Below, in pieces: positions 49,697-60,128 of a DNA stretch of 64,000 nucleotides (position 1 is its first letter; each line of letters begins with the position of its first letter). A model generated the notes under the pieces. The model did not search any database. It was not told the DNA's origin and worked only from the letters and a program-made list of their open reading frames with translations. Source of the stretch: Oxalicibacterium solurbis (GTDB lineage Bacteria; Pseudomonadota; Gammaproteobacteria; Burkholderiales; Burkholderiaceae_D); contig NZ_BMDP01000003.1 of NCBI RefSeq assembly GCF_014635845.1, forward strand, positions 372,001 to 436,000, in the 5' to 3' direction. A program made the translations under genes and the position numbers.

Positions 49697-49847
49697 TTCC
49701 TGGTGCGATGACATGCCGTCATCGCTTTCCCCGCAAGTGCTTGCGAGTCTTGCAATGCATTTTCAAAAAAATTTCGTGCGACAGGTGTACATCGGCGCAG
49801 GCTGATTCGGCATCTTCCATATAAGTCTTTTTTAAATGGGAGATGTG

Positions 49848-52205
49848 ATGAACAAGTTTCAGCGAAAGCTGACCGCAGTCGCAGTCGGCATGATGCTGTC
49901 GGCATCGGTGCTGGCACAAACCGGCCCGGTTGATCTGGATATAGCGCCGCAACCGCTCGGGCAGGCATTGAATGCGCTGGCCCGCCAGTCGGGAGCGCAA
50001 ATCGTGTTTGTCAGCGAGGTAACAGTTGGCAAGTCGGCACCGGCGATCAAGGGCAAGATGACGGTACGCGAGGCGCTGGACCGTTTGCTGGAGGATTCCG
50101 GCTTGCGTATCCAGGCGTCGGATGAGCGTACGTTCGCCGTCGTTCCTGCCGGCACGGCTGCTGCCGGTGAAAGTGTATTGCCGGTGGTGAATGTTTCGGC
50201 AACGACGGGCGATTTGCCGTCAGCTTATGCAGGTGGCCAAGTGGCGCGTGGCGGCAATGTGGGCATGTTGGGAAATACCAATTTCATGGACACGCCCTTC
50301 AATCAGACAAGCTATACGTCCAAAGCCATCGAAGACCAGCAGGCGCGCAGCTTGTCGGACTTGCTGATTGACGATCCTTCAGTGCGTCTTTCGAGTGCAC
50401 GCACCAATATCAACGAAGATTTTTCCATTCGCGGTTTTACTGTTGCGAGCCAGGACGTTGCACTCAACGGCATGTATGGTTTGATGCCGTATTTTCGAGT
50501 TCCGGTGGAAATGGCGGAGCGCGTGGAAGTGTTGAAAGGCCCATCGGCTCTGCTCAACGGCATGCCGACAAGCGGCAATGTCGGTGGCGCAATCAATGTT
50601 GTACCGAAGCGCGCGCATGATGAACCGTTGACACGTGTTACTGCCAATTACGTATCGGACTCGATTGGTGGTGGTCAGGTCGACATTGGCCGGCGATTCG
50701 GCGAGCGCAAGGAATTCGGCGTGCGTTTCAATGGCGCTTATCGTGATGGCGATACGGCGATCGACAAGCAGCAGCAGGAAGATCAGGTGTACGCGCTGGC
50801 CTTAGACTATCGCGGTGAGCGACTACGGACTTCACTGGATTTGATTTATCAGAAGCAGGATATCGATCGCGTTGTGCGTCAATTTCAAGTAAATAGTGGA
50901 TTGACTGCCATGCCGAAAGTGCCGGACTCCGACTTGAACTATCCAGGTTATGGCCGCTCTGAGACCACCGACAAGACGATTGTTGCACGGGCAGAATACG
51001 ATGTAACGGATGACGTGACCATCTACGGCGGCGTGGGGAATCGCAGGCATAGCATGGACGCGCTCGCCGGCAATCCGGAGTTGCTGGACACTGCGGGCAA
51101 TTTCAATTCGGCCCCGGCCTGGCAATTGTTTGACGTAAAAGACGAATCCTATGAGGCCGGTGCAAATGTGCGGTTCAATACCGGATCGATCAAACACAAG
51201 CTGGCCTTGAATTACTCCCGCGTCGAGCAGAATCAGGACATCTACATGACGTTCTTTGCTCCGCGTAATTCGAATTTGTATGCGCCCATATACAGCGATA
51301 CACCCAGTGTGGCGGGGTTGAATCCACAAAAGCTGCCATATATCGAAACCACTCTAACCAGTTATGCCTTGGCCGACACGTTGTCGTTCATGGATGACAA
51401 GGTCAAGCTTACGCTTGGCGCTCGTCATCAGAATGTGGAACAGCAGAATTATGAATTTGGTACGGGAGTGCCAGGACAACCATATGACAAATCTGCAGTT
51501 ACGCCAGTCGTGGGTGTCGTTGTACAACCATCCGATGGCTTATCGCTGTATGCAAACTATATCGAGGGGTTGTCCCCGGGGGCAATTGCACCCATAGGAA
51601 CGACTAACGCGGGCACCATCTTCTCGCCATACAAAACGAAACAGTATGAAGTCGGCACCAAGCTCGACTGGGGCCGTTTCGCAACAACTGTGAGCGTATT
51701 CCAGATCGAACGTCCTAGTGCAACCACGTTCAACAATGTGTTTTCGGTGAACGGCGAACAGCGTAATCGTGGTGTCGAGTTGAATGTCTTTGGTGAAGTT
51801 GCCAAGCATGTTCGCCTGATCGGTGGCGCTGCTTATACGCAAGGCAAGCTCACGCGCGCAGCGGGCGGTGTCAATGAAGGAAATGACGCAGTAGCCGTTC
51901 CTCGTTGGCAAGCAAATCTGGGCATCGATTGGGACAATGTCTTTACACCGGGGCTCGGGCTGAATGCGCGCGTCGTGTATACCGGCGACCAATATGTTGA
52001 TTCGGCAAACAATCTGGAGATCCCTTCATGGACGCGCTTCGATGTTGGTGCGCGATATCAAACGCGCATTGGTTCCAAGCCGGTGACGTTCCGCGCCAAT
52101 ATTGAAAACGTGTTCGATAAAGATTATTGGGCTTCATCCAATGCCGGCTATTTGTATGTCGGTGCGCCGCGCACTTTCCTGCTTTCGGCAACAGTGGACT
52201 TCTAA
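49848..52205 (+). CDS. TonB-dependent siderophore receptor with N-terminal signalling (STN) domain
   Basis: 785 residues from the ATG at 49848 (RBS gggaga); an in-frame ATG four codons upstream lacks an RBS. A signal peptide ends near VLAQ. Residues ~25-100 form the STN domain (LDIAPQPLGQALNALARQSG). The plug (RSLSDLLIDDPSVR ... INEDFSIRGF ... ERVEVLKGPSALLNG) and beta-barrel follow, ending in FLLSATVDF with the C-terminal Phe. It imports a ferric siderophore and signals through FecR. The siderophore is not identifiable from sequence alone. Confidence 0.93.
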   Translation: MNKFQRKLTAVAVGMMLSASVLAQTGPVDLDIAPQPLGQALNALARQSGAQIVFVSEVTVGKSAPAIKGKMTVREALDRLLEDSGLRIQASDERTFAVVPAGTAAAGESVLPVVNVSATTGDLPSAYAGGQVARGGNVGMLGNTNFMDTPFNQTSYTSKAIEDQQARSLSDLLIDDPSVRLSSARTNINEDFSIRGFTVASQDVALNGMYGLMPYFRVPVEMAERVEVLKGPSALLNGMPTSGNVGGAINVVPKRAHDEPLTRVTANYVSDSIGGGQVDIGRRFGERKEFGVRFNGAYRDGDTAIDKQQQEDQVYALALDYRGERLRTSLDLIYQKQDIDRVVRQFQVNSGLTAMPKVPDSDLNYPGYGRSETTDKTIVARAEYDVTDDVTIYGGVGNRRHSMDALAGNPELLDTAGNFNSAPAWQLFDVKDESYEAGANVRFNTGSIKHKLALNYSRVEQNQDIYMTFFAPRNSNLYAPIYSDTPSVAGLNPQKLPYIETTLTSYALADTLSFMDDKVKLTLGARHQNVEQQNYEFGTGVPGQPYDKSAVTPVVGVVVQPSDGLSLYANYIEGLSPGAIAPIGTTNAGTIFSPYKTKQYEVGTKLDWGRFATTVSVFQIERPSATTFNNVFSVNGEQRNRGVELNVFGEVAKHVRLIGGAAYTQGKLTRAAGGVNEGNDAVAVPRWQANLGIDWDNVFTPGLGLNARVVYTGDQYVDSANNLEIPSWTRFDVGARYQTRIGSKPVTFRANIENVFDKDYWASSNAGYLYVGAPRTFLLSATVDF

Positions 52206-52279
52206 TTGCGCATTCGCTTCAGTCCGTCGTGTCGGCATCTGCCGGCCGGCGGATATGTCATTAGTGACAAAGGATATTT

Positions 52280-53509
52280 ATGAGCAAGCAATCATCCATA
52301 CGTACCTGGTCATGGATACATAAGTGGAGCAGCCTGATTTGCACGCTGTTCCTGCTGATGCTTTGCATCACCGGATTGCCGTTGATCTTCCATGAAGAAA
52401 TCGACCACCTGACAGGCGAACCGGAAGCGCCTGTCATGCCTGCCGGCACACCTCGCCAGAGCCTGGATCGCATTACCGAGGCGGCGCGTGCGCATTATCC
52501 GGATCAGGTCATCCAGTTCCTGTCGTGGGATCAGGAGGAGCATCCTCACATGATTTTCGTCGGCATGAACAAATCGCTGCAGGCTTCTCCGGATACGCGC
52601 AAGGCGCTCATCTATGACGGTCGCACCGCGCAACTGCTCGATACGCCGAACGATCAGGAAGGATTCATGTACGTGATGCTGAAACTGCATACGGACATGT
52701 TTGCCGGTTTGCCGGGCAAGCTCTTTCTTGGCGTGATGGGTTTGCTGTTTGTGATCGCGATCGTGTCCGGCGTTGTCTTGTACAGCCCGTTCATGCGCAA
52801 ACTGGAATTCGGAACCATCCGAAAATCGCGCTCGCCAAGATTGAAGTGGCTGGATATGCACAACCTGCTGGGCATCGTGGCACTGGTCTGGACGATGGTG
52901 GTGGGCCTGACTGGCGTGATCAACACACTGAGCGACGTGGTGCTCTATGCTTGGCAGAACGGCCAGCTTGCCGAAATGGTGGCGCCGTATAAGAACATGG
53001 CACCGTTGCAGGAGCAGGGTTCAACGGAAAATGCAGTGCGTGTGGCGGAAAAGGCTGCGCCGCATATGGAATCCTCTTTCGTTGCCTTTCCTGGCACCGT
53101 GTTTACCAGCCAGCATCACTATGCCGTTTTCATGAAAGGCAATACGCCGTTGACGTCGCGCCTGTTGATGCCGGCTCTGGTCGATGCGGAAACCGGCAAG
53201 CTGACCGATATGCGTGAGATGCCGTGGTACGTGCAGACGTTGTTCCTGTCGCAGCCGCTGCACTTCGGCGATTACGGTGGCCTGCCGCTGAAGATCTTGT
53301 GGACATTCCTGGACATTGCAACCATCGTCATTCTCGGAAGCGGACTTTATCTATGGTTGCGCCGCCGTCAGGTCATCGCGGAACTGCCGGAGGCGGAATC
53401 GATTGGCCTGATTGATGACAAGGCAGCAGTGCCGGGCGCGGCAAAAGAAACAGGACAAGAATCAGCATCAGGAACGGTGCAAGAGGCAATACAGGGAGCG
53501 GCACGATGA
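52280..53509 (+). CDS. PepSY-domain inner membrane protein
   Basis: 409 residues. Four hydrophobic helices: ICTLFLLMLCITGLPLIF, a second near FLGVMGLLFVIAIVSGVVLY, a third near LGIVALVWTMVVGLTGVIN and a last near TFLDIATIVILGSGLYLW. The order (W.(H)KW at the start, HxD/E motifs, PepSY loops between) matches the PiuB-like PepSY-associated TM family, commonly placed behind siderophore receptors and thought to take part in ferric siderophore reduction. It ends overlapping the small membrane gene. Confidence 0.85.
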   Translation: MSKQSSIRTWSWIHKWSSLICTLFLLMLCITGLPLIFHEEIDHLTGEPEAPVMPAGTPRQSLDRITEAARAHYPDQVIQFLSWDQEEHPHMIFVGMNKSLQASPDTRKALIYDGRTAQLLDTPNDQEGFMYVMLKLHTDMFAGLPGKLFLGVMGLLFVIAIVSGVVLYSPFMRKLEFGTIRKSRSPRLKWLDMHNLLGIVALVWTMVVGLTGVINTLSDVVLYAWQNGQLAEMVAPYKNMAPLQEQGSTENAVRVAEKAAPHMESSFVAFPGTVFTSQHHYAVFMKGNTPLTSRLLMPALVDAETGKLTDMREMPWYVQTLFLSQPLHFGDYGGLPLKILWTFLDIATIVILGSGLYLWLRRRQVIAELPEAESIGLIDDKAAVPGAAKETGQESASGTVQEAIQGAAR

Positions 53510-54007: not shown

Positions 54008-56398
54008 TTACGCAGACGCATCTCTCTCTGCAAAGAGGGATTTTCTGACGATGGCGTGAATGCCGATATTGCCGTTGACGATCTGCGTCAGGCCGAAGTC
54101 GATGGCGACCGACATCAAAGAGACGGCTTCGTCTTCCGTCAGCCCTTTTGCGACCATCAGGAATTTGCGCGTCTTGCGGAAGGCATCGCGCATGGCGAGA
54201 TCCAGCGTGCTTTTCTTGTAGACCTCGGATTGTGCGGTGGCGCCCAGTTCCGCAAGATAGTTGGGATAGCTGAAACCCAGGATGACCCATTCGTCCCGGG
54301 TTTCGATGAAGGGGAAATCCAGATCCTGGAACTGGCTGCTGCTTCCTTTCTTGTGCAACACGAGCTGGAATTCTCCGGTCAGCGAACATTCGATCGCCGT
54401 GCCGCAGATTTCGGAATCGCCCTGCGAGGCATGCGGATCGCCGACGGAGAAAAGTCCGCCGGCCACCTGCACGGGAAGAAATACGCTGGAGCCGGGGGCG
54501 GCGCGCCAGTTGTCGATATTGCCGCCGAAGGAACCCGGCGGTACGGAATCCACATTGCCTTCGAAATTGGGTGCCACTGCCATGACGCCGAAATGCGGCC
54601 TGACAGGAATGCGTACGCCCTTCAGGACATCCCGCTTTTTTTCGATCGTGGAATGATCGACCGGAATGCCGGGATAGTCGATCAGCTCGTGACGTACGCC
54701 GGAAGGGTCTACCTGCGGCGTCCAGCGGAAGCTGTACAGGGCGCGGGCGAACTTCTCGAAACCGGTTTCCTCGATCTCGTAAATCGTGATGACTTCGCGC
54801 TGCTTGGGCGCGGTGATCAGGTCGCGATAGTGATAGCCCCACCAGGTGGCAGCATTGCTGCCGTACGCTTTGCCTGGCACCGCCTGGCTTGGCCTGAATG
54901 CGACGTCGAGGATGCGCACCTCCAGAATGTCGTCCGGCTGCGCATCGCGAATCATGATGGGCCCGGTGCAGATATGCACGCCAAAACCCTCGCCGGGGCC
55001 TCTGCCGTAAACGGAGCCGTCGATCGGCCCCGCGCCGCGGCGATTGATCGCCTTGCCATCGTGATCCCAGCGGAAGATGTCTTCCGCATCGGGATCGCCC
55101 TTGATCATCAGCGCGTGATCGTCATAGGCATGCTGGGTGATCGTTTCTATGGTGAGAAAGTCACCGCTGTTGACGGTCAGGATCGGCTTTAAAGATTTGC
55201 AGAAATATCCCCAGTGAATCGTCTTTCTCGTCGCGGCGAGATGGTGGTGATTTTTTTTCTGTTGCCGCTTCTGTTTCGTTGATGCCAGCCGCAGCGTTGT
55301 GCCGATGGCGCCTTCGGAATGGAATTCGGCGAGTGCATCCCATTCCATATCTTCCTGGTCTTCCAACTTGAGAAAGGCCGGGCTGCCGCGATACGCATTC
55401 GACTGGGGTTTGGGCGCGGCACGCCATTCGCGCGGCGTCACGTTGTATTCCTGGCTGAATGCGCGGCTGAAGTTCGCAGCATCCGTGAAGCCCCATCTGT
55501 CGCAGATTTCCAGAATGGTCAGATGCGCCAGGGCCGGATCGCCCAGATCGATGCGGCAGCGCTCCAGCCTTCTTTTCTTCAGGTATTGCGTGAAGGTGGT
55601 GCCGATGGTCAGGAACAGTTTTTGAACGTAACGGGAGGAAATCTTTTCCGCTTCAGTTAGCTGTTGCAATGAAAACTCTGGCTCGGACAGATTGAGCTCG
55701 ATGGTCTTGCAGACACGCTTCAACTGACTGAGCTGGGTGGAGCTGGATCGCTTGGCGTTGTTCAGCGCTTCGACCTGCGGCCCCTTGTGCTGGGCCAGTG
55801 TCGACAGCAGCAGGCTTTCCAGCGCCACTTCGATTTGCGACAGGTCTTCCGGCTGGATGTCGCCCAGGCTGCCGGAAATCGAATCGAGCAGCGCAAAAAT
55901 GGCATTGGCTGTGCCGCTTCCTCTTTGGATGAGCGTGTGTCCTTCCGGGATGGAGCGGAGCAACCGCAGCAGCAGGCTGACACCTTTGAGACAGATAAAG
56001 GTGGCGTGGAAATCCGAGAGAAATTCAAGCTGCCAGTTCTGGGTGGGGTCGATGATCAGGACATGATTGGTATCGAACTGGCTGGCTTCGGCCGCCGTCC
56101 TGATATAGCCGCTTCCCGCGCGCAGCTGGACAACGAGGACGGCCTGGCCGCCCTGGTTGAGGTAATGGCGGATCAGCCCGCTATCAGGTGTGATGACCTG
56201 CGGCGTGGCATGGATTTCGGCATAAATCGATTGCAGCGTCGAGACGCATTTCCAGCCGTTGCTGCTGAGTTTTGCTTCCGTCTTTCCCTTCGGGCTGAAC
56301 TTGAGCATCAGGTCGGCGAGAATTTCCGTCCACGCATCGCTGCGCAGCGCATTCGGTATGACGTCGGTATTGAATCGCCAGTTTTGCATGATGCTCAA
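54008..56398 (-). CDS. Fusion of AraC-type regulator and acetamidase/formamidase
   Basis: 796 residues in one uninterrupted frame. Residues ~25-200 match the N-terminal sensing domain of AraC regulators of the AraC_binding_2/NitR type. Residues ~225-327 are the double helix-turn-helix (LTEAEKISSRYVQKLFLTIG ... CDRWGFTDAANFSRAFSQEY, NVTPREWR). A basic linker (373-392) leads to an acetamidase/formamidase domain (~395-790) with the family metal/active-site stretch DPHASQGDSEICGTAIE (654-670). The enzyme half should hydrolyse an amide to ammonia and an acid. A regulator with a built-in enzyme of this type is unusual; it might sense and consume its own inducer. No second amidase gene is nearby. 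Confidence 0.85.
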   Translation of the reverse strand: MSIMQNWRFNTDVIPNALRSDAWTEILADLMLKFSPKGKTEAKLSSNGWKCVSTLQSIYAEIHATPQVITPDSGLIRHYLNQGGQAVLVVQLRAGSGYIRTAAEASQFDTNHVLIIDPTQNWQLEFLSDFHATFICLKGVSLLLRLLRSIPEGHTLIQRGSGTANAIFALLDSISGSLGDIQPEDLSQIEVALESLLLSTLAQHKGPQVEALNNAKRSSSTQLSQLKRVCKTIELNLSEPEFSLQQLTEAEKISSRYVQKLFLTIGTTFTQYLKKRRLERCRIDLGDPALAHLTILEICDRWGFTDAANFSRAFSQEYNVTPREWRAAPKPQSNAYRGSPAFLKLEDQEDMEWDALAEFHSEGAIGTTLRLASTKQKRQQKKNHHHLAATRKTIHWGYFCKSLKPILTVNSGDFLTIETITQHAYDDHALMIKGDPDAEDIFRWDHDGKAINRRGAGPIDGSVYGRGPGEGFGVHICTGPIMIRDAQPDDILEVRILDVAFRPSQAVPGKAYGSNAATWWGYHYRDLITAPKQREVITIYEIEETGFEKFARALYSFRWTPQVDPSGVRHELIDYPGIPVDHSTIEKKRDVLKGVRIPVRPHFGVMAVAPNFEGNVDSVPPGSFGGNIDNWRAAPGSSVFLPVQVAGGLFSVGDPHASQGDSEICGTAIECSLTGEFQLVLHKKGSSSQFQDLDFPFIETRDEWVILGFSYPNYLAELGATAQSEVYKKSTLDLAMRDAFRKTRKFLMVAKGLTEDEAVSLMSVAIDFGLTQIVNGNIGIHAIVRKSLFAERDASA

Positions 56399-56436
56399 AT
56401 GAAGGTGCCGCTTGTCTGCGCAGGGCGGACAGGACG

Positions 56437-56456
56437 TTGTCGATACATTGTCGATA
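56437..56456 (-). promoter_or_regulatory. Phased direct repeats, candidate AraC-type binding site
   Basis: ttgtcgata at 56437-56445 and again at 56448-56456, 11 bp centre to centre, about one helical turn. This is the usual geometry for the two helix-turn-helix units of an AraC protein. It lies ~40-60 bp before the start of the AraC-amidase fusion gene. Confidence 0.55.
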
Positions 56457-56483
56457 TATCGCCGTCCGATTCGATGGCGATAT
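56456..56483. repeat. 8-bp inverted repeat upstream of the AraC-amidase gene
   Basis: atatcgcc (56456-56463) and ggcgatat (56476-56483) are perfect inverted copies with a 12-nt spacer, next to the phased direct repeats. It may be part of the control region. Confidence 0.4.
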
Positions 56484-56927
56484 GCCGGGATTTAAAATTT
56501 CCGGATCGGTGGTGTCCGAGAGATCGTCCCTGCTCCTCCGACACCGGATTTATTGTCCAGTTTGGATGATTTTTGTGTCGTCGGCCAGAAGTTGATCAAT
56601 TGCAATCGTTTCGCACGGCAATGCCCGAATCCTCTGATGTGACCGGAAGCGAGAATTGTCGGTGCCTGACGCAAGACTTTCACAATTGCCCGGCAGCCTC
56701 TTGTTCTTGGGCGCACAAATTCTGGTCAGATGGCGAATTGCACATTCGGGAAAACTGACGGATTTGTCATTTTCCGGTCAGCAACAAGACATTGACGCTG
56801 CGGTATATTGGCTGCCCTGTGGCGCCATGCGCCTCGCTTTGCGGCGCACGCAAGAGCGTGTATCCGGCAGGTGTAGATGCCATACCCACCGGATGCTGCC
56901 TGTCTATCAGAAACGGAATTTACCCAG

Positions 56928-59900
56928 ATGTGGATCGTTAAAATCGCCCTGCGGCGGCCGTACACCTTCCTCGTGATGGCGCTGCTGATCTTCCTCGCCA
57001 CGCCGATCACGTTGCAGCGCATGGCGACCGATATCTTCCCCGATATCAATATCCCGGTGATCAGCATCGTCTGGAAATACACCGGCATGTCGGCCGAAGA
57101 GATGGGGCAGCGCATCACCTCCATCAACGAGCGCGTGCTGACGACCACCGTCAACGACATCGAACACATCGAATCGCAAACGCTGGGCGGCGTGGCGGTA
57201 ATCAAGGTGTTCTTCCAGCCGAAGGCGAATATCCAGACGGCGATCGCGCAGGTCACGGCGGTCGAGCAGGTGATCGTGAAGCAGATGCCGCCGGGCACGA
57301 CGCCGCCGTTGATCATCCAGTATTCCGCTTCCAGCATCCCGGTCATCCAGCTCGGCCTGTCAAGCAAGTCGATGTCGGAGCAGGCCCTGTTCGATACGGC
57401 GTTGAACGCGGTGCGCACCAAGCTGGTGACGATTCCGGGCGTGGCGATTCCGTATCCGTATGGCGGCAAGAGCCGCGTGGTGTCGGTCGATCTGGATTCG
57501 CAGGCATTGCAGGCCAAAGGACTGTCGCCGACCGATGTCGTCAACGCCATCAGCGCACAAAACCTGATCCTGCCTAGCGGCACCGCCAAGTTCGGCGATA
57601 CCGAATACACGGTCAAGATGAACGGTTCGCCGCAGGTGCTGGATGAACTGAACGATCTGCCGGTACGCACGACCAGCGGCGCCACCGTCTATCTGGGTGA
57701 AGTGGCGCACGTGCGCGACGGCTTCACGCCGCAGACCAACATCGTGCGCCACAACGGCGAGCGCGGCGTGCTGCTGTCGGTGCTGAAGAACGGCGGCGCA
57801 TCGACGCTGGAAATCGTCGACAACCTGAAGGCCTCGCTGAAAGACATCATGCCGACGCTGCCGGACGGCGTCGACCTGATCACGCTGTTCGATCAGTCCG
57901 TCTTCGTCAAATCCGCGGTGAGCGGCGTCGTGCATGAAGGTCTGATCGCGGGCTGCCTGACGGCGGCGATGATCCTGCTGTTCCTCGGCAACTGGCGCAC
58001 CACCTGCATCATCGCGATCTCGATTCCGCTGTCGGTGCTGTCGTCCATCCTTGCGCTGAATGCACTGGGCGAGACGATCAACATCATGACGCTGGGCGGG
58101 CTGGCGCTCTCGGTCGGCATCCTGGTCGACGATGCGACGGTGACGATCGAGAACATCGAGCGCTATCTGCACATGGGACACGATCTGGAAACCGCGATCC
58201 TCGAAGGCGCGGGCGAGATCGCGGTGCCGGCGCTGGTGGCGACGTTGTGCATCTGCATCGTGTTCGTGCCGATGTTCTTCCTGACCGGCGTGGCGCGCTA
58301 TCTGTTCGTGCCGTTGGCCGAGGCGGTGATCTTCGCGATGCTGGCGTCGTACATCCTGTCGCGTACGCTGGTGCCGACGCTGGTGATGCTGTTCATGCGC
58401 AACGCCAGGCATGGTGACAAAGGTCCGGACCACAAGCCCAGCATGCTGGAGCGCGTGTATACCAAGTTCGACGCGCAGTTCGAACGCATGCGCGGCGTCT
58501 ACATCGTCATCCTCAGTACGCTGTTGCCGCGTCGCCGTTTCTACGCATCGGTCTTTCTCGGTTTCTGTGTACTGTCCAGCGGCCTGTATCTGGCGTTGGG
58601 GCGCGACTTCTTCCCGAGTGTCGATGCCGGCCTGATGCGCCTGCACTTCCGCGCGCCGACCGGCACGCGTATCGAGGAAACCGCAAGGCTGGCCGACCAG
58701 ATCGAAGCCGTCATTCGCGAACGGATTCCGGCCGACGAACTGGATGCCGTGCTCGACAATCTCGGCCTGCCTTATTCCGGCATCAATCTTTCATACAGCA
58801 ACGCCGGCACGATTGGCACACTGGATGGCGAAATCCAGATCGCACTGAAGAAAGGCCATGCGCCGACCGACGACTACGTGCGCGAACTGCGGCGCGAATT
58901 GCCGAAGCGCTTCCCCGGCATCGAATTCTTCTTCCAGCCGGCCGACGTCGTCACGCAGATTCTGAACTTCGGCTTGCCGGCGGCGATCGACGTGCAATTC
59001 TCCGGGAAAGATATCGTCGACAACTACTATCTGGCCACCGAGCTTGAGAAGGAGCTCAAGAAGATTCCGGGCGCGGTGGATGTGCACGTCCACCAGCGCA
59101 TCGACCAGCCGACGGTGCAGCTGAACATGGACCGCAACAAGATGCAGCAACTTGGGCTGAACGCCAACAACGTCGCGCAGAACGTGCTGGTGCCGTTGTC
59201 CGGCAGCTTCCAGACGGCGCCGGCCTTCTGGCTGAATCCGAATAACGGCATCTCCTACGACATCTCGATACAGACGCCGCAATACAACGTCGATTCGCTG
59301 GATACCTTGCTGCGGATGCCGGTCGGTACCGGCAATCCGGCGGTGCCGACGCAATTGCTGGGTAATCTGGTGACCACTCAGTCCGCGCGCCAGCTGGCGA
59401 TCGTATCGCGCTACAACATTTCGCCGGTGGTCGATGTATTCGTCAGCGTCAGCGGGCGCGATCTCGGTTCGGTCGCGTCCGAAGTCGAACGCGAGGTGGC
59501 GAAGATCCAGCATAAATTGCCGAAGGGATCGAAAATCACGATACGCGGCCAGGTGGAAACGATGAAGACATCGTTCGTCGGCCTCGGTATCGGCCTGGTG
59601 ATGGCGATCGTGCTGGTCTACCTGCTGATCGTCGTCAACTTCCAGTCGTGGATCGATCCGCTGATCATCATCAGCGCGCTGCCGGCGGCGCTGGCCGGCA
59701 TTGCGTGGATGCTGTTCCTGACCGGCACCACACTCTCGGTGCCGGCGCTGACCGGCGCGATCATGACGATGGGCGTGGCGACGGCCAACAGTATCCTGCT
59801 GGTATCGTTCGCGCGGCAGCGATTGCTGGCCGGCGAGACGCCGCTGGCCGCTGCGCTGGAAGCCGGCGCCACGCGTATCCGTCCGGTGCTGATGACGGCA

Positions 59901-60128
59901 CTGGCGATGATCATCGGCATGCTGCCGATGGCGCTGGGCCTGGGCGATGGCGGCGAGCAGAATGCGCCGCTCGGCCGCGCCACCATCGGCGGCCTGCTGT
60001 TTGCCACCGTATCCACCCTGTTCTTCGTGCCGCTGGTATTTGCGGGCATTCATTCCCTGCTGGCGAAGCGTGCTGCCAAAAAAAGTTTGCCGCCGCCGCA
60101 CTCCGTTGTTGTTGAAGGAAGTCACTAA
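56928..60128 (+). CDS. RND efflux transporter permease subunit
   Basis: 1066 residues from the ATG at 56928 (MWIVKIALRRPYTFLV); an in-frame ATG 17 codons upstream is less likely because family members start here. Twelve membrane segments in two halves surround large periplasmic loops. Proton-relay acids are in helix 4 (LGGLALSVGILVDDATVTIE). It pumps small molecules out in exchange for protons with the adaptor and outer-membrane factor encoded behind it. The substrate is not evident. Confidence 0.93.
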   Translation: MWIVKIALRRPYTFLVMALLIFLATPITLQRMATDIFPDINIPVISIVWKYTGMSAEEMGQRITSINERVLTTTVNDIEHIESQTLGGVAVIKVFFQPKANIQTAIAQVTAVEQVIVKQMPPGTTPPLIIQYSASSIPVIQLGLSSKSMSEQALFDTALNAVRTKLVTIPGVAIPYPYGGKSRVVSVDLDSQALQAKGLSPTDVVNAISAQNLILPSGTAKFGDTEYTVKMNGSPQVLDELNDLPVRTTSGATVYLGEVAHVRDGFTPQTNIVRHNGERGVLLSVLKNGGASTLEIVDNLKASLKDIMPTLPDGVDLITLFDQSVFVKSAVSGVVHEGLIAGCLTAAMILLFLGNWRTTCIIAISIPLSVLSSILALNALGETINIMTLGGLALSVGILVDDATVTIENIERYLHMGHDLETAILEGAGEIAVPALVATLCICIVFVPMFFLTGVARYLFVPLAEAVIFAMLASYILSRTLVPTLVMLFMRNARHGDKGPDHKPSMLERVYTKFDAQFERMRGVYIVILSTLLPRRRFYASVFLGFCVLSSGLYLALGRDFFPSVDAGLMRLHFRAPTGTRIEETARLADQIEAVIRERIPADELDAVLDNLGLPYSGINLSYSNAGTIGTLDGEIQIALKKGHAPTDDYVRELRRELPKRFPGIEFFFQPADVVTQILNFGLPAAIDVQFSGKDIVDNYYLATELEKELKKIPGAVDVHVHQRIDQPTVQLNMDRNKMQQLGLNANNVAQNVLVPLSGSFQTAPAFWLNPNNGISYDISIQTPQYNVDSLDTLLRMPVGTGNPAVPTQLLGNLVTTQSARQLAIVSRYNISPVVDVFVSVSGRDLGSVASEVEREVAKIQHKLPKGSKITIRGQVETMKTSFVGLGIGLVMAIVLVYLLIVVNFQSWIDPLIIISALPAALAGIAWMLFLTGTTLSVPALTGAIMTMGVATANSILLVSFARQRLLAGETPLAAALEAGATRIRPVLMTALAMIIGMLPMALGLGDGGEQNAPLGRATIGGLLFATVSTLFFVPLVFAGIHSLLAKRAAKKSLPPPHSVVVEGSH

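Follow-up and report, generated by a model that had tools for sequence, protein, structure and literature searches.

An AraC-type regulator and an acetamidase/formamidase were found joined in one open reading frame on the minus strand of the window (the whole stretch of DNA analysed, 64 kb in length), and this fusion is real, widespread and conserved. We lean, if only slightly, towards reading its product as a single-chain activator and amidase, that is, as an operator-bound, amide-responsive and self-limiting switch of an amide regulon. The reading is built on features of sequence: the fusion and its conservation, the conservation of individual residues, and operator-like sites with their placement. 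Enzyme-fused regulators are informative about how cells link the detection of a compound to its use; in the present case a conserved family, a small predicted regulon and a candidate operator showing promoter geometry emerged from sequence alone. The gene and its regulator half were mapped as follows:

54008–56389, minus strand: fusion gene read from an ATG start, 793 aa (796 aa from the alternative TTG start at 56398)
55760–56389, minus strand: N-terminal sensing/dimerisation domain, AraC_binding_2-like (residues 1–210 of 793)
55418–55726, minus strand: AraC-type DNA-binding domain with two HTH (about residues 222–324), a part in which the AF2 model is confident

Frame and regulator half: The minus strand was read in a single frame of 796 residues that opens with TTG 56398 and closes with the stop at 54008, with neither internal stop codon nor frameshift. 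A preliminary description of this DNA had placed both halves in one uninterrupted frame of that length, and it had the coordinates right; the gene lies on the minus strand. ATG 56389 (793 aa) is a likelier start than TTG 56398, because the alignments with homologues begin at about this position. The assignment of an AraC regulator and an acetamidase/formamidase to one chain was borne out by Pfam, which found HTH_18, HTH_AraC and FmdA_AmdA. HTH_18 scored 58.8 bits in the window protein (cutoff 33.6; HTH_AraC was also matched), and HTH_18 and FmdA_AmdA were matched in all 47 aligned fusions; the double HTH domain is that of AraC/XylS regulators. AraC_binding_2 scored 18.2 bits in the window protein, under the cutoff of 27, and was matched in 40 of the 47 aligned fusions (E ≤ 0.001). 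Among these 47 sequences the sensor was weakly conserved (mean 0.39, 5 columns at ≥95 %), and the HTH part reached a mean of 0.65 with 22 such columns. The best NCBIfam match of the N half was FeaR, with 83.5 bits against an equivalog cutoff of 199 that was not reached. FeaR itself has the layout AraC_binding_2 plus HTH_18; the N half of the fusion appears to share this two-domain layout of FeaR-type AraC/XylS regulators, but unlike them the fusion has a C-terminal amidase and an R-G-x-P linker. By Foldseek the N half matched the AraC-like activator CuxR (E 3.6e-10); the overall rmsd of 13 indicates a different arrangement of the domains. The AlphaFold model of the full protein had a mean pLDDT of 80.6 and a pTM of 0.67.

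Distribution: Of 101 loci examined (the window and L033–L132), 79 have both halves in one frame; the set was seeded with the fusion, so that the fraction is no estimate of prevalence, and four of the 79 (L082, L087, L102 and L108) are truncated at the end of a contig. Homologues of the same architecture therefore exist, and the doubt raised in the preliminary description, that homologues might always be split, is excluded. A contig scan with the window protein gave 161 stretches matching a pattern, of which 143 encode relatives; the best 80 of the 143 were used, and the genera represented include Parvibaculum, Novosphingobium, Asticcacaulis, Ancylobacter, Roseibium, Burkholderia and Thiomonas. 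Eight of 12 genus mates carry the fusion (G001, G002, G003, G005, G006, G008, G009 and G011); in four of the eight the halves were aligned separately, within one open frame of 821–852 aa. Among the matches listed for the other 87 of the 100 genomes around the window's genome (a set of 100 that contains the own genome), none covers both halves. A long frame in G022 that aligned with part of the amidase has an FmdA_AmdA domain and lacks an AraC domain. A broader sample comprised 199 Pseudomonadota genomes (own genome included), of which 12 matched at 1e-60, and both halves lay in one match in five, again including the own genome (G000, G134, G190, G246 and G267); the G190 match contains one TAA, as reported.

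Amidase phylogeny: In a FastTree analysis of 79 fused and 78 stand-alone amidase domains (157 in all), one branch (support 98) has every fused domain on the same side. The neighbours of the fused clade are stand-alone enzymes, many of them seemingly with a Tat signal (signals judged by eye), and the amidases that partner the fusions fall into three separate stand-alone groups. A stand-alone amidase was located ≤2.5 kb from the fusion in 53 of the 79 loci. In five sphingomonad/caulobacter loci a stand-alone amidase adjoins a stand-alone AraC-type regulator, besides the fusion:

L062, 19612–22239: stand-alone amidase/regulator pair
L075, 15625–17697: stand-alone amidase/regulator pair
L077, 20086–22144: stand-alone amidase/regulator pair
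L086, 18786–20943: stand-alone amidase/regulator pair (regulator searched with Pfam)
L088, 18603–20868: stand-alone amidase/regulator pair

Amidase half: Two features define this part of the window protein:

54011–55252, minus strand: acetamidase/formamidase domain (residues 380–793)
54389–54439, minus strand: amidase signature DPHASQGDSEICGTAIE (residues 651–667)

The domain belongs to FmdA_AmdA (PF03069), having the fold and the conserved polar residues of that family and scoring 100.5 bits in Pfam (cutoff 27), and the signature, which had been named earlier as the amidase site, stands in frame. Against the NCBIfam equivalog of the formamidase FmdA it scored 52.8 bits, the cutoff of 500 not being reached. 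A match of 585 bits was obtained with 3b9t (Methylobacillus flagellatus, "Tat signal protein" in the PDB), with a Foldseek TM-score of 0.90–0.91 depending on the target and 59 % identity in the structural alignment; 3b9t is stand-alone and Tat-annotated, whereas in the fused copy a DNA-binding half precedes the enzyme. No other part of the protein is as conserved as the amidase (mean 0.73, 131 columns at ≥95 % in the 47 aligned fusions). Ten residues, H475, D490, N627, D629, D654, H656, E663, E670, E699 and D767 (796-aa numbering), were retained by every one of the 79 fusions, and the same ten N/D/E/H residues predominate in near and distant stand-alone amidases. D661 (same numbering) is likewise kept in all 79, with asparagine in 7 of 13 distant stand-alone amidases. 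Lysine 683 is altered in 21 of 79 fusions and retained by 78 of 79 stand-alone amidases; valine 774 is replaced by alanine in 39 of 78 fusions and present in 80 of 80 stand-alone amidases. At otherwise 95 %-conserved fusion columns the window protein deviates five times (G486D included) and other fusions up to eight times. A degenerate amidase is unsupported at the ten conserved positions; positions 683 and 774 do vary. Judged by these residues, the amidase half is most likely catalytically competent; since positions fixed in stand-alone amidases vary in the fusions, activity, rate or substrate may have shifted.

The amidase half could instead be mainly a sensor, its old active site recognising the amide and altering DNA binding, with useful turnover slight or absent. 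In MocR/GabR regulators the aminotransferase half serves in this way. A nearby stand-alone amidase in 53 of 79 loci would make catalysis by the fusion redundant, conservation is far higher in the amidase than in the domain supposed to be the sensor, and the fusions have drifted at several positions that are fixed in the stand-alone enzymes; a pure sensor, however, could have lost some of the ten family-conserved residues that all 79 fusions retain, and we consider a sensor role unlikely, if still the most serious of the alternatives. MocR/GabR regulators consist of a GntR winged helix and an aminotransferase fold, and no Pfam match to a GntR or an aminotransferase domain was found in the window protein or the 47 fusions. 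Like the trigger enzymes PutA, BirA and Ada, they hold an enzyme fold and a DNA-binding function in one chain; the fusion differs from all of these in its DNA-binding and enzyme families. To our knowledge, no AraC–amidase member has been reported among the trigger enzymes.

Linker: The two halves of the window protein are joined by a linker with the following features:

55253–55417, minus strand: linker predicted to be disordered (residues 325–379; pLDDT <50 for residues 328–376)
55379–55390, minus strand: conserved linker motif R-G-x-P, here RGSP (residues 334–337)
55346–55348, minus strand: in-frame linker ATG with an AGGA-like sequence upstream, a possible internal start for a free amidase

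Mean conservation of the linker in the 47 aligned fusions was 0.27, with three columns at ≥95 % (R334, G335 and P337), and its length varied from 45 to 91 residues. R-G-x-P was present in 79 of 79 fusion linkers (shuffled linkers give 5.2), at 9–16 residues past the HTH, as RGRP (53), RGWP (12), RGSP (6), RGKP (3), RGLP (3), RGMP (1) and RGVP (1); after the HTH it was absent from all nine stand-alone regulators of the set. RGRP is the core of the AT-hook. An AT-hook identity was rejected, as the AT-hook profile gave no match at E ≤ 1 in the window protein and none at E ≤ 0.001 in the 47 fusions, and the window has RGSP, though RGRP stands in 53 of 79 linkers. The basic character that had been ascribed to the linker does not extend to the family: net charge ranged from −10 to +6 (window +1), and the median of 0 rules out a basic linker as a functional element. 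A conserved internal translation start was also rejected; an in-frame ATG occurs in just 24 of 79 linkers, so that such a start is not a family feature. In the window species, initiation at 55346–55348 could possibly yield a free amidase.

A long and variable linker (45–91 residues) that is predicted to be disordered would suit a plain bifunctional protein, in which the regulator works through the N-terminal domain of its half, the amidase comes as an additional enzyme and the fusion serves merely for co-expression. The separate regulator and amidase neighbours in L062, L075, L077, L086 and L088 are consistent with such an arrangement, but R-G-x-P is invariant within the variable linker and no split form of the fused clade was found among the 157 amidase domains, a sample seeded with the fusion; we regard co-expression as an improbable explanation.

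Candidate operator: A new finding is the candidate operator CAAG-N3-TTGTGCGCC-N6-CAAG, a 22-bp direct repeat. A first motif run covered 60 of the 79 fusions (the 19 others, whose starts were doubtful or truncated, were omitted) and was inflated by near-identical Ancylobacter loci. A second de novo search was carried out with 25 representatives of <72 % identity, the upstream region of the window included, and gave a motif score of 191 at width 28, compared with 92–96 in four shuffles. Ten alphaproteobacterial fusion promoters were hand-picked from this result for a 34-bp matrix, which was run over whole loci. Since the window and some further fusion promoters that were scanned had been among the 25 inputs, the match in the window is not wholly naive; the amidase and porin promoters of the own genome were not among these inputs. 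The best hit of the matrix in the window was:

56696–56729, minus strand: candidate operator CTGACCAGAATTTGTGCGCCCAAGAACAAGAGGC

This match scored 15.3 (runner-up 11.2). At the stand-alone amidase locus of the own genome the top match lies directly upstream of the gene, with a score of 13.9 (next 6.7). A held-out scan covered 73 loci, all longer than 9 kb and neither among the ten used for training nor among eleven that are close to these; the top match was upstream of a fusion or a stand-alone amidase in 22 of the 73. Length by itself would predict 3.3, and the mean over 100 column-permuted matrices was 3.46 (maximum 11). The top match fell outside the target region in the other 51 loci, some of which lack a fusion and some of which have the site at the head of an operon. 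In L070 the site immediately precedes an SBP_bac_3 gene, and L067, L080 and L084 have sites nearly identical to it; in L086 a site immediately precedes a Rieske oxygenase gene. The SBP-ABC-amidase-fusion cluster on each of the plasmid loci L136 and L137 has a site immediately ahead of its SBP gene.

Upstream scores of stand-alone amidases were ≤3.4 in 14 of 14 cases on stretches without a fusion (for L042–L045 the whole genome was searched and held no fusion; for the remaining ten the contig only), at least 7.3 in 11 of 13 cases within the genus, and, in a third group of 45 that includes the fusion-free L051, at least 7.3 in 19 and lower in 26. The strict pattern, with up to 3 mismatches, was searched in 12 of the 13 genus genomes (G004 was left out) and gave 10 matches, the reversed control giving 0. 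Two stand before fusions (G000 and G002), seven before stand-alone amidases (G000, at C3:611868–611896, G002, G003, G005, G006, G008 and G009) and one before a Porin_4 gene (G000 C3:245048–245076); three belong to the own genome, the window site at 56696–56729 among them. The fusion-bearing genus mates G001 and G011 had no match to the strict pattern, nor had the fusion-free G007, G010 and G012. An operator-like site is thus common to the fusion's own gene, the stand-alone amidase and the porin.

The link between fusion and operator is a predicted one, and in sphingomonads a stand-alone AraC-type regulator lies beside site-bearing operons; the operator might be real and belong to another, co-occurring regulator. 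Candidate sites at fusion genes in both alpha- and betaproteobacteria, and the failure of the pattern to match in the fusion-free genus mates G007, G010 and G012, argue against such an owner, to which we give a very small chance.

Promoter geometry: In 45 sites, hand-chosen from the matrix matches with close relatives included, a TATAAT-like −10 hexamer was found 12–19 nt downstream in 28 and at exactly 16 nt in 20; the matrix itself contains no −10 box. The spacing is the layout expected of an activator that would be bound against the −35 region. The window's own site, at the long distance of 307 bp upstream of the fusion ATG, had no −10-like hexamer in the 12–19 nt test, and a consensus scan upstream of the window gene found no sigma-70 promoter. 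Of the earlier idea that the protein switches its own gene, an operator-like site upstream of the fusion was recovered; autoregulation of the window copy is less certain, because its site has no −10-like hexamer. The site is 148 bp from a divergent gene for an AcrB/AcrD/AcrF-type pump (start 56877). Within 56390–60128 of the window the candidate operator lies between the fusion and this pump gene, and could act on the pump gene too.

Proposed mechanism: For the single-chain activator and amidase that we prefer, we infer DNA binding, an amide as inducer, catalysis and a self-limiting loop. The AraC half would bind the direct-repeat operator CAAG-N3-TTGTGCGCC-N6-CAAG, placed against the −35 region. 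In the presence of amide it would activate the uptake genes (porin, ABC transporter) and the hydrolysis gene (stand-alone amidase) and, in many species, the fusion's own gene as well. The amidase half, most likely active, would deplete amide near the switch; because the amidase sits on the regulator, induction would need an amide supply that outruns the amidase, and would end when the supply ends. It is possible, if rather doubtful, that one-protein self-limiting amide switches form a conserved class, with a single fusion event, three kinds of partner amidase, an R-G-x-P that touches DNA or docks the amidase, and a coupling of catalysis to promoter binding.

Plasmid copies and annotation: Twelve plasmid records hold a region covering at least 80 % of the fusion protein. 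Six plasmid records list the gene as "acetamidase/formamidase family protein" or "AraC family transcriptional regulator"; the proposed switch would give a function to proteins listed under these names, and the fusion could provide a compact amide or nitrile biosensor. On Rhizobium johnstonii pRlX5 (L137, 8457–10866) the fusion is annotated as a hypothetical protein and an acetamidase/formamidase family protein. An artefact of assembly or annotation, or a pair of split genes, was ruled out by the same one-frame fusion in 79 loci from many genera, and has next to no probability: nothing was found in its favour, beyond the annotation of one relative, L137, in two pieces.

Relation to described systems: The fmdCABDEF cluster of Methylophilus methylotrophus is described as encoding a formamidase together with a porin for amides, an uptake system dependent on a binding protein and a putative positive regulator, and as induced by formamide and urea (PMC10781810). 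These parts are comparable with those seen around the fusion, but regulator and enzyme are separate genes in Methylophilus. In Variovorax boronicumulans an AraC-family regulator upstream of the amidase gene amiD was proposed to control amiD (PMC11573777); there too, unlike in the fusion, the genes are separate, and AmiD belongs to the amidase-signature family. An AraC–amidase fusion was not described in any of the titles and beginnings of abstracts listed for the open-access articles searched.

Neighbouring genes: Proteins were chosen for Pfam searches by clustering neighbouring six-frame ORFs, which was noisy in GC-rich DNA (shadow ORFs) and served just for this choice; two Ancylobacter neighbour proteins had no Pfam match. 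Porin, amino-acid-type ABC transporter and RidA-type genes were found beside the fusion, as were nitrile hydratase genes in Caballeronia zhejiangensis p2. Such neighbours suggest that amides, in some cases derived from nitriles, are taken up and degraded. On p2 (L135, 1–10929) the fusion is divergent from genes for SBP/ABC, acetamidase, a GTP-binding protein, nitrile hydratase alpha/beta and CbtA/CbtB, which form a nitrile-to-acid cluster. In L036 the fusion is followed by Porin_4 and DUF1275 genes, the porin having its own site; in the own genome the DUF1275–porin pair is found elsewhere on the contig, away from the fusion, and again with a site. The pairs were located at:

L036, 6364–8716: DUF1275 and Porin_4 genes, beside the fusion
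L148, 704–2845: DUF1275 and Porin_4 genes, apart from the fusion (own genome)

Beside the fusion in the window (49836–53506) lie the genes of a TonB-dependent receptor and a PepSY-TM protein, a pair which we take to be iron-uptake-like and which has no evident amide link. Alpha subunits of Rieske ring-hydroxylating oxygenases recur near fusions in sphingomonads and Parvibaculum (L086, 17495–18772; L053, 6386–7693). The stand-alone amidase of the own genome and its candidate operator are situated directly downstream of a tRNA-Phe gene (L041, 10866–11122), which is a common integration spot.
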